From Clostridia bacterium (lineage in GTDB: Bacteria > Bacillota > Clostridia > Acetivibrionales > STF1-152), in contig JANQLN010000089.1 in assembly GCA_028280575.1 (NCBI GenBank), positions 1 through 36,306 of the forward strand: DNA of 36,306 bases, written 5' to 3'. The translations under genes were made by a program, and so were the position numbers. Under the pieces are notes generated by a model. The model had not been told where the DNA came from. It saw only the letters and a list, made by a program, of their open reading frames with translations, and made no database searches. Shown here piece after piece: positions 81 through 4,073 of this stretch (position 1 is its first letter; each line of letters starts with the position of its first letter).

Positions 81-125
81 AAAAGGCACACGCGCAGGTT
101 ATCTCTACCCACACATGTACCTTTT
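81..125 (-). terminator. Intrinsic terminator in the leader of the left-edge gene
   Basis: Read on the minus strand, 125-107 pairs with 99-81 over about 19 positions, including several G-U pairs, around the 7-nt loop at 106-100. The 3' arm runs into six U residues (84-79) and a further U-rich stretch. The hairpin sits between the structured RNA at 172-269 and the ribosome binding site of the gene starting at 39, so it would stop transcription before that gene. The G-U pairs are productive only in the minus-strand RNA, which fits this direction. Confidence 0.85.
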
Positions 126-179
126 AGAATGCCGTTGAAAATTTGAGCAAAATGTTTTATAATTAACATTCAAGGTTAC
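117..179 (-). promoter_or_regulatory. Predicted antiterminator helix
   Basis: In minus-strand RNA the segment 179-167 (GUAACCUU then GAAUG) can pair with 131-117 (CAUUC, three unpaired bases, then AAGGUAC). This gives 5 + 7 base pairs with one extra A. The helix uses the 3' strand of the aptamer base stem (179-172) and the 5' arm of the terminator (125-117), so it excludes both. It is the usual geometry of a transcriptional switch. If the base stem is stabilised, for example by ligand, the terminator forms, which predicts an OFF switch. The pairing is seen; the mechanism is inferred. Confidence 0.65.
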
Positions 180-269
180 TGTGGCAGCTATTAAGCTGCT
201 TGTGCGGTAGGTCTTAGCTACCTGCATGAATTCTCTGGTGCGTCAACACCAGGGAATCATGGTAACCTT
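172..269 (-). promoter_or_regulatory. Four-way-junction RNA, candidate riboswitch aptamer
   Basis: In minus-strand RNA four helices fold around one compact junction. P1 is 269-262 with 179-172 (8 bp). P2 is 260-247 with 240-226 (14 bp, one bulge, 6-nt loop). P3 is 225-218 with 210-204 (7 bp, bulged A, 7-nt loop). P4 is 199-194 with 189-184 (6 bp, 4-nt loop). The junction strands are very short: C261, nothing between P2 and P3, ACAA at 203-200 and CACA at 183-180. It starts about 15 nt after a predicted transcription start, and an antiterminator and terminator follow. I compared it from memory with the common riboswitch classes, including the four-way-junction NiCo class, and found no match. 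A protein-binding leader is an alternative. Confidence 0.7.
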
Positions 270-290
270 ATTTAATTTTCTCCATACAAT

Positions 291-319
291 ATTGTATAAA
301 AAACCAAGGAAAATTGCAA
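291..319 (-). promoter_or_regulatory. Sigma-A promoter of the structured leader
   Basis: On the minus strand TTGCAA (319-314) and TACAAT (296-291) are separated by exactly 17 nt, so transcription should start near 284. The -10 box lies inside a 14-bp perfect palindrome at 284-297. The -35 box lies in a weak 8-bp hairpin (310-317 with 329-336) that could also end transcription of the upstream acyltransferase gene. Position and orientation fit the leader at 172-269. Confidence 0.7.
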
Positions 320-354: not shown

Positions 355-999
355 CTAAGAATCAAAATTCATAATTTTTGACGGCCTGCACATGACTGCA
401 TGGAGGGCGGGAACATCCGAACCGACTACCGCTCCCATGCTTATTCTGGCTTCGTCGCCTATATTGGCTTTTTCCATTATAACTGAATTGGAGCCTACAA
501 TGACTTTTTTCCCCACAGTAACATTACCTGCTATTATGCTGTTTACAAGGCAGGAAGAAAAGTCCCCTATTTTTGCGTCATGTGCTATAACAGCTCTCAT
601 ATTTATAAAAACATGCCTTCCAAGTGATGCATTAACGGAAACAATACTGTCTATCCCAAGTATTGTCCCCTCTCCAATGCTTGTTCCCTTCGATATTTTG
701 CATGTGGGATGTATGACCACAGGGAACCTGGGTGAATACCTGATTATTTTACCCAGCATCTTTTCCCTGGCAGCCGGTGCACCTGCTGCAATTATAACAT
801 TTGCACCCGGTGAAAAAGCTTCAAGCCTTTCGTGTGTCCCCAGTACTTCATATCCGTTTACACACCCGCCCGGATTTTCAGTTATATCATCCAGGTACCC
901 AATAATGTTCCATTTTTTTTTCAGGGAATTTATATCTTCCAATATTTGCACCACTTCCCGGGCAAGCCCTCCCGAACCGTAAATTATAACATCCCTCAT
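355..999 (-). CDS. PglD/NeuD-family sugar acyltransferase
   Basis: This 214-residue protein has the two-part build of the PglD/NeuD family. An N-terminal Rossmann-like segment opens with IIYGSGGLAREV (about 5-16). A left-handed beta-helix of hexapeptide repeats covers roughly residues 95-200 and would bind acetyl-CoA. Family members N-acetylate UDP- or dTDP-amino sugars in the cytoplasm. It is the last gene of the minus-strand glycan set, 100 bp after the aminotransferase, and pairs naturally with that enzyme: amination, then acylation of the same sugar. The AGGAGG touching the ATG is too close to act; the GGGGGC a few bases further up is the better ribosome binding site. The acyl donor and exact sugar are inferred. 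Confidence 0.8.
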   Translation of the reverse strand: MRDVIIYGSGGLAREVVQILEDINSLKKKWNIIGYLDDITENPGGCVNGYEVLGTHERLEAFSPGANVIIAAGAPAAREKMLGKIIRYSPRFPVVIHPTCKISKGTSIGEGTILGIDSIVSVNASLGRHVFINMRAVIAHDAKIGDFSSCLVNSIIAGNVTVGKKVIVGSNSVIMEKANIGDEARISMGAVVGSDVPALHAVMCRPSKIMNFDS

Positions 1000-2285: not shown

Positions 2286-3161
2286 TTAATTTGAAAATCT
2301 TATATAATAGTTAAAATTTTCTTCCATACTATTTTTGCAGCGGGTACAATCTGCTTTGGCGTCATGAACCGAAGCGCAATATGGACCTCTTTTTCCATTT
2401 GTTAATTCCTCTAAATATTTTGTATACTTTAGCTTATACTTTTTTTTAAATTGTGTATTAATATAATACTTATCTCTTAAGGAAATACATCCGGGATAAT
2501 TATCATCTCTTATCCTGCAGTGTTTGGCGTATTTGCATTCACTGCATTTAAAAGCCTGGTCCTGGCTGATTTCTACTGACGGTAAAAAGCCTGCCGTAAA
2601 GGGTGTGTAATTCATAACCCTGTAAGTCATTTCAACATCACCCATATATGTTTCCTCACACCAGTAACCGAGCCGGTTAAAAACCTGCGGGCGAAAGCAT
2701 TGGAAGCATCCCTCAAGATACCCCTTGTGTATTTGCAGATAGCTTGACCCGTTCTTTTCATGGATGGTCAGGGGACTTTTATACCTTTTATAATAATCCT
2801 TATTTACGGCTCCCAGAAGCCCGGCCTCGGGAAATGTGTTAAAAGCCTCAAGAAAATTATTGAGCCACGGTTTGGTGATTATATTGACATCATTGTCAAT
2901 GGTGATAAAAAACTGGCCTTCCTTTCTTTTCGACAGGTTATAGTTAACCGCATAAATTTGTCCCCTGTTTACGGAAAATCTTGTCCTACTCTTAATTCGC
3001 CTGTCTTTAAGCCCGCAAATATACTTCCATGTATCATCCCCGGAATTATTATCAACAATATGGAGCTCAAACTCATCCTTATTATCCAAAAGTGAATTTA
3101 AATTTTTTATTGTTAATCCCAGCCTGTTCCAGGTAACATAACTGACAAAGGGCGGCCTCAT
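2286..3161 (-). CDS. Family-2-like glycosyltransferase with Cys-rich insert (second of tandem pair)
   Basis: The 291-residue protein has a GT-A fold: an N-terminal nucleotide-binding beta strand (FELHIVDNNSGDD, about 31-43) and a DXD-type metal site DND at 89-91. It has no signal peptide or membrane segment. It is clearly a duplicate of the gene at 3171-4073: both open MRPPF, both contain FELHI, and both end in an ENFNYY tail. An unusual conserved cysteine cluster follows the catalytic core (Cys206, 209, 215, 225), then YCASVHD (Cys262) and, only here, Cys272 and Cys275. The ribosome binding site AGGGTGG overlaps the stop of the preceding gene, so the two are probably coupled. Acceptor and donor are unknown; a dTDP-amino sugar is a reasonable guess. 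Confidence 0.8.
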   Translation of the reverse strand: MRPPFVSYVTWNRLGLTIKNLNSLLDNKDEFELHIVDNNSGDDTWKYICGLKDRRIKSRTRFSVNRGQIYAVNYNLSKRKEGQFFITIDNDVNIITKPWLNNFLEAFNTFPEAGLLGAVNKDYYKRYKSPLTIHEKNGSSYLQIHKGYLEGCFQCFRPQVFNRLGYWCEETYMGDVEMTYRVMNYTPFTAGFLPSVEISQDQAFKCSECKYAKHCRIRDDNYPGCISLRDKYYINTQFKKKYKLKYTKYLEELTNGKRGPYCASVHDAKADCTRCKNSMEENFNYYIRFSN

Positions 3162-3170
3162 TTTTCCACC

Positions 3171-4073
3171 CTAGTTTGAATTTGCAAGGTAATAGTTGAA
3201 GTTCTCCTGTGCCCATTCAAGGTTATATACATGGCTCTTGATTGACTGGGGATCGTGTATTGAGGCGCAGTAGGCAGTTCTTTTTCCGCTTTTCAGCTCT
3301 TCAAAAAATTCTATGAACTTCCATCTAAAGGCCCCGGCAAACAATTCATTTTTGTAACGCACAGCATGCTCGACAAAGCAGTTATAACCCAATCTGCCTA
3401 AAAAACGGCAATAATTTTTGCCGGTACACTCCTCGCAGGGTATACTCTGCAGCTGGTCGATTTCTACAGTTTCAATAAAGCCTGCGTTATAACCGGTATA
3501 ATGTGTTATTCTTGCAGAAAGCTCCGCATCTCCATAATAGCATTCTTCATTCCAGTAGCCCATTACGTCTATCAGCTCCGGGCGCAGGCATTGCAAGCTT
3601 CCCGGAACAAAATCCATGGGGGTCAATATGTTTGCATTTTTAAGTTTCAGATAACTAATATTATTTTGTCTGCAAGGTATTACCTCCGGCAGGTAATTAG
3701 GATAGGGATTTCCTCTTGGAACCCCTAAAAGCCCCACATCGCCGAATGCATCAAAAACATCCATAAAGTGTTTTATCCATCCTTTGGTCTTTACGTTCAC
3801 ATCACTGTCCACAGTAATAAAATATTGATCCTTCTCCCTTTTTGTCAGGTTTAGGTTAACCGCATATATTGGCCCATAATTATTGGGCATCCTCAACTTT
3901 GCTTTAATTCTCGGATCGTTTACCGATTGAATGTATTCCCATGTCCCGTCAGATGAATTACTGTCAATTATATGCAGCTCAAACTCTTCATTATTATCTA
4001 ATAGAGCACGCAGGTTACGTGCGGTCAAACCCAGTCTGTTAAAAGTCAAAAAGCTTATAAAAGGCGGTCTCAT
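3171..4073 (-). CDS. Family-2-like glycosyltransferase with Cys-rich insert (first of tandem pair)
   Basis: At 300 residues this is the paralogue of the downstream gene. It has the same MRPPF start, FELHIIDSNSSDG nucleotide-binding strand and DXD site (DSD, 89-91). The cysteine pattern is Cys213, 216, 222, 232 followed by YCASIHD (Cys269). The spacing C-x2-C-x5-C-x9-C matches its neighbour apart from filler residues, which suggests a bound metal rather than chance. AAGGAG lies 6-7 nt before the ATG. It is the first gene of the minus-strand set and diverges from rmlA across a 145-bp spacer with an inverted repeat. It probably adds a sugar to an envelope glycan or glycoprotein. Confidence 0.8.
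   Translation of the reverse strand: MRPPFISFLTFNRLGLTARNLRALLDNNEEFELHIIDSNSSDGTWEYIQSVNDPRIKAKLRMPNNYGPIYAVNLNLTKREKDQYFITVDSDVNVKTKGWIKHFMDVFDAFGDVGLLGVPRGNPYPNYLPEVIPCRQNNISYLKLKNANILTPMDFVPGSLQCLRPELIDVMGYWNEECYYGDAELSARITHYTGYNAGFIETVEIDQLQSIPCEECTGKNYCRFLGRLGYNCFVEHAVRYKNELFAGAFRWKFIEFFEELKSGKRTAYCASIHDPQSIKSHVYNLEWAQENFNYYLANSN

Follow-up and report, generated by a model that had tools for sequence, protein, structure and literature searches.

The window analyzed here, a 36,306-nt stretch (contig JANQLN010000089.1, positions 1 to 36,306 of the forward strand, assembly GCA_028280575.1, Clostridia bacterium), begins within a small-protein gene on the minus strand that is preceded by a structured, terminator-bearing leader. 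An earlier note on this DNA had read the leader as a riboswitch of unrecognized class, and the question raised by the locus is what signal the leader responds to. As set out below, the leader is very probably a countertranscript-driven transcription attenuator, controlled by a cis-encoded antisense RNA that is predicted from the sequence.

The leader is a covarying RNA outside Rfam

The promoter, junction RNA, terminator, and ribosome binding site that the earlier note had listed were recovered on the minus strand. The sense promoter, TTGCAA-17-TACAAT, was present at 319-291(-), placing the transcript start near 283-284, and nearly all homologues had a comparable promoter. An intrinsic terminator of 19 pairs was found by a terminator scan at 125-81(-), and both a ribosome binding site and the start of the gene (39-1(-), start codon at 39, product beginning MDGKKEDKG) were present, the gene running past the contig end. 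The inventory had overlooked an opposing promoter at 135-163(+), a pairing of the mRNA 5' end (P0), a hairpin masking the Shine-Dalgarno (SD) sequence, and the existence of paralogues with hypervariable loops. Elsewhere on the minus strand of the window, surface-glycan type genes were observed at 355-999(-) and 2286-4073(-), comprising a PglD-like hexapeptide transferase and two related family-2 glycosyltransferases in tandem.

The leader mRNA was predicted to fold as a four-way junction at 269-172(-), with P1 (269-262/179-172) as the base stem, the hairpins P2 (261-225), P3 (222-206), and P4 (199-184), and the linkers J3/4 (205-200) and J4/1 (183-180). The junction had been described as having almost no linker bases, which holds for the empty J1/2 but not for J3/4 (~6 to 8 nt) and J4/1 (~4 to 5 nt), both of which are among the most conserved parts. 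The junction had a z score of -6.9 and the complete leader one of -8.0, and 0 of 200 shuffles were equally stable. In an alignment of 36 homologues fitted to a covariance model, 95.7% of the P1-P4 cells were paired, 19 of 28 pairs showed changes on both sides, and double-change cells numbered 180, compared with 53 after shuffling and at most 17 in slid controls. All four helices covaried, and an earlier MAFFT alignment of ten sequences gave the same picture; the four-helix fold suggested previously is thus upheld. At the gathering score, Rfam 15 returned zero matches in the window or at the leaders of 18 relatives, while permissive scans gave low-score matches only, none of them credible. This ruled out the classes already in Rfam, among them a possible XRE-linked motif for a remote group. 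The leader is a real, covarying RNA outside Rfam, in agreement with its earlier designation as unrecognized.

Alternative pairings of the terminator arm and the mRNA 5' end

Nearly all of the examined copies had a terminator ahead of the gene. The window's CUACCGCACA (210-201(-)), made up of the P3 3' strand and J3/4, pairs with UGUGUGGGUAG (115-105(-)), the core of the terminator 5' arm. In a swap test over 22 lineages, this pairing was more stable with the lineage's own arm than with swapped arms (-12.9 versus -10.3 kcal/mol, p = 2e-4). The antiterminator of the earlier note, in which the P1 3' strand pairs with the terminator arm, can form in the window copy but showed no lineage-specific signal in the same 22 lineages (own -6.95 versus swapped -6.61, p = 0.40), and it was ruled out as a pairing that is not conserved. 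What survived of that proposal, as a prediction, was its OFF logic and an antiterminator exclusive with the terminator; the switch helix is the P3 3' strand with J3/4 rather than P1.

In the second alternative pairing, P0, the mRNA begins with ~13 nt, GGAGAAAAUUAAA (283-271(-)), that pair with UUUAAUUUUCUCC (81-69(-)), immediately 3' of the terminator. P0 covaried over 22 lineages (own duplex -12.8 versus swapped -7.3 kcal/mol, p = 3e-7). The hairpin masking the SD sequence (72-49(-)) has a CUCC in common with P0 and was found in most of the 20 lineages folded. Since the P0 3' tract doubles as an arm of the SD hairpin, the two structures are mutually exclusive, and we infer that P0 opens the SD sequence in the full-length mRNA, this being the least certain step of the scheme.

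A multicopy leader family in Bacillota

BLAST located the leader at nine places in its own genome. Four of these coincide with contig ends, where the repeat seems to have broken the assembly. The covariance model recovered seven complete copies, and two further copies are cut by contig ends. The assembly breaks within leader copies fall at window position 1 and at the ends of contigs C30, C97, and C128, which makes the number of copies in this genome uncertain. A protein search within the same order revealed the same architecture ahead of a small-protein family. Covariance-model searches (model R1, then R2, with E values that are rough owing to a short calibration) found the leader in 17 of 391 genomes of the class, 8 of 398 genomes of the phylum, and 17 of 83 genomes of a second class, genomes with the leader often holding 2 to 8 copies; three model matches (L119, L121, and L122) were left out as doubtful. 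Judged from these matches, the leader family is spread across Bacillota, with many copies ahead of small-protein genes on chromosomes. Among the queries tried, neither the leader nor the protein matched a plasmid or a phage, and a plasmid or phage origin was ruled out as unsupported.

Three copies in one genome (L094, L097, and L098) carried a ~39-nt insertion, identical in all three, that makes P4 a long hairpin; their P2 and P3 loops differed. A cobalamin riboswitch (L104:3146-3328(+)) was observed near one leader copy and a c-di-GMP-I riboswitch (L085:5147-5236(-)) near another.

The P2 and P3 loops are hypervariable

Between paralogues of the same genome, divergence reached 46% of positions in the P2 loop and 52% in the P3 loop. 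The stems (5.5%), the junctions (4.2%), the P4 loop (12%), and the spacer (13%) all diverged less. Held-out f100 pairs gave 51% for P3 and 30% for P2, against 1.9% for the remaining core and 21% for the 120 nt downstream. Both loops were never common to any same-genome pair of copies.

These values bear on the rival reading of the leader as a new class of small-molecule riboswitch, in which a ligand would stabilize the four-way junction and so bring about termination. Such a device would account for the strong covariation, the conserved junction bases, the terminator/antiterminator alternatives, and the varied downstream genes. Riboswitch loops outside the ligand pocket, however, drift like neutral sequence, whereas the P2 and P3 loops diverge more than the neighboring noncoding sequence and form a pair that no two copies in a genome share. 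Differing as they do between copies, these loops would instead confer self-specificity on an antisense contact.

A U-turn (YUNR), in sense or antisense, was present in 25 of 39 P2 loops, compared with 12.9 after shuffling (reached in 0 of 500 shuffles), and was absent from both strands in about a third; the P3 loops showed no U-turn enrichment. Six pairs of P2 loops were exact reverse complements (0.09 expected), which, from the loop sequences, is the same kissing contact encoded on either strand. Because palindrome hairpin loops can invert, the loop inversion and variation could be partly mutational. By eye, no fixed complementarity between the P2 and P3 loops was seen in cis. The P2 loops of this family include the classical UUGGCG, which is reported to be the loop common to a set of loop-loop antisense attenuator fusions (PMC3753616). 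The role of the U-turn has been reviewed (PMC6562991), and orthogonality is not fixed by loop identity alone (PMC3753616).

An opposing promoter and a predicted antisense RNA

Conserved ATTATA and TT(G)CAA boxes were noted 3' of P1, where they have no evident role in the leader. On the opposite strand they constitute TTGAAA-17-TATAAT at 135-163(+), and a promoter scan of 600 bp called only two promoter-like sites, this antisense site (11/12) and the sense promoter (9/12). Among 62 instances, the spacer was 17 bp in 61, the position was identical in 60, and TATAAT was exact in 56, the mean score being 2.1 compared with 5.3 (standard deviation of 1.05) in dinucleotide shuffles. The antisense -10 lies inside the covariance model, and its conservation is therefore partly selected for, which is not so for the -35, located outside. 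Of 24 held-out copies that were used to build no model, 22 had TTG upstream of the -10 at a distance of exactly 17 bp. L103 and L107, both among the most divergent instances, had no clear antisense promoter at the standard position.

The antisense RNA, whose transcription from this promoter we infer, would be ~110 nt long (170-279(+)), beginning at P1, spanning the entire junction, and reaching a U-rich tract (268-279(+)) just past P1. This tract corresponds to the conserved A-tract AAAATTAAATA of the sense strand, which was kept in all groups. The predicted end is an imperfect U-rich tract after a multibranch stem, and a simple terminator scan called no terminator there.

The errors in base pairing also point to this RNA. 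A structure that acts in the sense strand only should show a clear excess of G-U, yet the stem cells contained 61 A-C (wobble in antisense only), 46 G-U (wobble in sense only), and 25 other mismatches, these being counts of sequences rather than independent events; when each lineage group was scored only once per position, A-C and G-U numbered 30 and 18. The alignment was fitted to the sense model, which would, if anything, hide A-C. By these counts, the base-pair errors fit antisense folding at least as well as sense folding. The A-C excess sits in P1 and upper P2 and is reversed in lower P2, so that both strands seem to be constrained, and the antisense strand itself seems to be under selection to fold.

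A riboswitch would leave both the opposing promoter and the selection on antisense folding unexplained. Because the loops vary within a genome, the antisense promoter is fixed, and the antisense strand appears selected to fold, the input is most likely an antisense RNA and not a ligand. The riboswitch reading of the earlier note is probably wrong, and we consider a new ligand-binding class very unlikely. Covariation and a terminator do not by themselves make a leader a riboswitch, and comparison of paralogue loops together with a scan of the opposite strand can discriminate.

The downstream genes encode mostly small proteins

The genes 3' of the leaders encode mostly small proteins. The window protein family showed DUF6809 similarity below the Pfam cutoff, with one relative above it, while Spo0E-like and SymE-like proteins were above the cutoff, the SymE-like genes adjoining serine recombinases. 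Also found downstream were XRE regulators, a 55-aa family (f100 genomes), a small putative membrane protein (L087 to L089), and S-layer-type proteins (read by eye). As the same RNA stands ahead of unrelated proteins, the leader travels with unrelated genes. That these genes are united by small size and, in part, by mobile-element company, rather than by a pathway, also argues against a riboswitch. In an autoregulatory leader, the downstream small protein would bind the junction; although gene and leader do travel together in one genus group, the same core precedes the unrelated DUF6809-like, Spo0E-like, SymE-like, XRE, S-layer-type, and 55-aa families, making this the least credible of the explanations considered, with hardly any chance of being correct.

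A complete paralogue of the window protein (L016) has 108 aa and was predicted as three helices (mean pLDDT of 80.5), and a fold search with it gave no credible structural match. A search of genome contigs with the protein gave one weak match, probably unrelated, and nothing on DUF6809 or a comparable chromosomal family was found in the open-license literature searched. Distant homologues of the small protein at five loci (L031, L033, L035, L037, and L040) had no recognizable leader. At L090 to L093, L095, L096, and L099, the leader was ahead of serine recombinases, with SymE-like or DUF6809-like genes between them in some; such loci are possibly mobile elements under their own antisense RNA. 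At L118, the leader was followed by an ORF of ~92 aa and then by a long ORF resembling TnpB by eye, the tested part of which had no Pfam match.

The SymE-like and small membrane-protein genes, together with the conserved SD hairpin and P0, would suit an antisense RNA acting mainly in the manner of a type I antitoxin, by blocking translation of a toxin mRNA or by exposing it to RNase III decay, with attenuation being minor. Candidate toxins are the SymE Pfam matches among the downstream proteins, the window family having sub-threshold DUF6809 similarity only. Since nearly all copies examined have a terminator with a lineage-specific pre-emptor ahead of the gene, an arrangement that characterizes attenuation, we regard a mainly antitoxin-like role as rather unlikely.

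Proposed mechanism

Under transcription attenuation, the reading that we prefer, the antisense RNA would cover exactly the four-way junction of the leader mRNA, and the two RNAs would make their first contact through kissing interactions at the P2 and P3 loops. In the absence of antisense RNA, the P3 3' strand and J3/4 would pre-empt the terminator 5' arm, resulting in read-through into the gene. Since the bound antisense RNA would cover P3 and J3/4, the pre-emptor strand would be held in a duplex, enabling the terminator to form and transcription to stop. In the read-through mRNA, the 5' end, an SD mimic, would form P0 with the C-rich tract that follows the terminator and could release the ribosome site from the SD hairpin; antisense binding would also undo P0.

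On balance, we lean toward a broader picture of chromosome-wide, mutually orthogonal attenuators, in which each copy combines a fixed chassis with a P2/P3 loop pair of its own that is subject to diversifying selection. In this picture, as many as eight or nine small-protein genes per cell would each be silenced only by their own antisense RNA, and the 5'-terminal SD mimic would provide a second, translational lock. If true, this would constitute a widespread group of chromosomal attenuators that occurs in numerous families of Bacillota and has no Rfam entry. It would equally be nature's own experiment in kissing-loop orthogonality, a property that synthetic biologists have attempted to engineer. 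It would also point to unstudied small proteins (DUF6809-like, the 55-aa family, Spo0E-like, and SymE-like) under self-specific silencing.

Comparison with known systems

Most of what is known about attenuation by antisense RNA comes from the control of plasmid copy number. In pT181 repC and pIP501 repR, a pre-emptor strand competes for the terminator 5' arm, and the same logic is proposed here. The likeness extends to a convergent antisense RNA over the leader (here predicted), kissing loops with U-turns, and an OFF state when the antisense RNA is bound (here proposed) (PMC3753616; PMC6562991). In the present family, the opposite-strand promoter lies downstream of the paired region, a terminator is present with a pre-emptor inside the antisense target, and specificity loops with a U-turn occur as a sequence pattern, enriched in P2 only. 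Unlike the plasmid systems, however, this family is chromosomal and multicopy, precedes small-protein genes instead of a replication initiator, has a four-way junction with two hypervariable loops and the extra P0/SD-hairpin layer, and gave no Rfam match to the plasmid families. Plasmid copy-number control was ruled out, the downstream genes encoding small proteins and the queries tried giving no plasmid match.

At icsA/RnaG of the Shigella virulence plasmid, an antisense RNA first engages its target by kissing and brings about premature termination in a nonreplication gene (PMC5394118). The kissing start, premature termination, and nonreplication target are all proposed here as well, but icsA/RnaG is a single plasmid-borne locus, and its antisense RNA, 450 nt long, originates inside the gene. 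We know of no paralogous family with variable loops for icsA/RnaG.

The type I toxin-antitoxin loci SymE/SymR, bsrE/SR5, and txpA/RatA likewise have a small protein opposed by a cis antisense RNA (here predicted), and SymE homologues are among the genes that this leader family would control. Those loci act on translation or mRNA decay, whereas in the present family, the downstream products are only putative toxins and the anatomy is that of a transcription attenuator.
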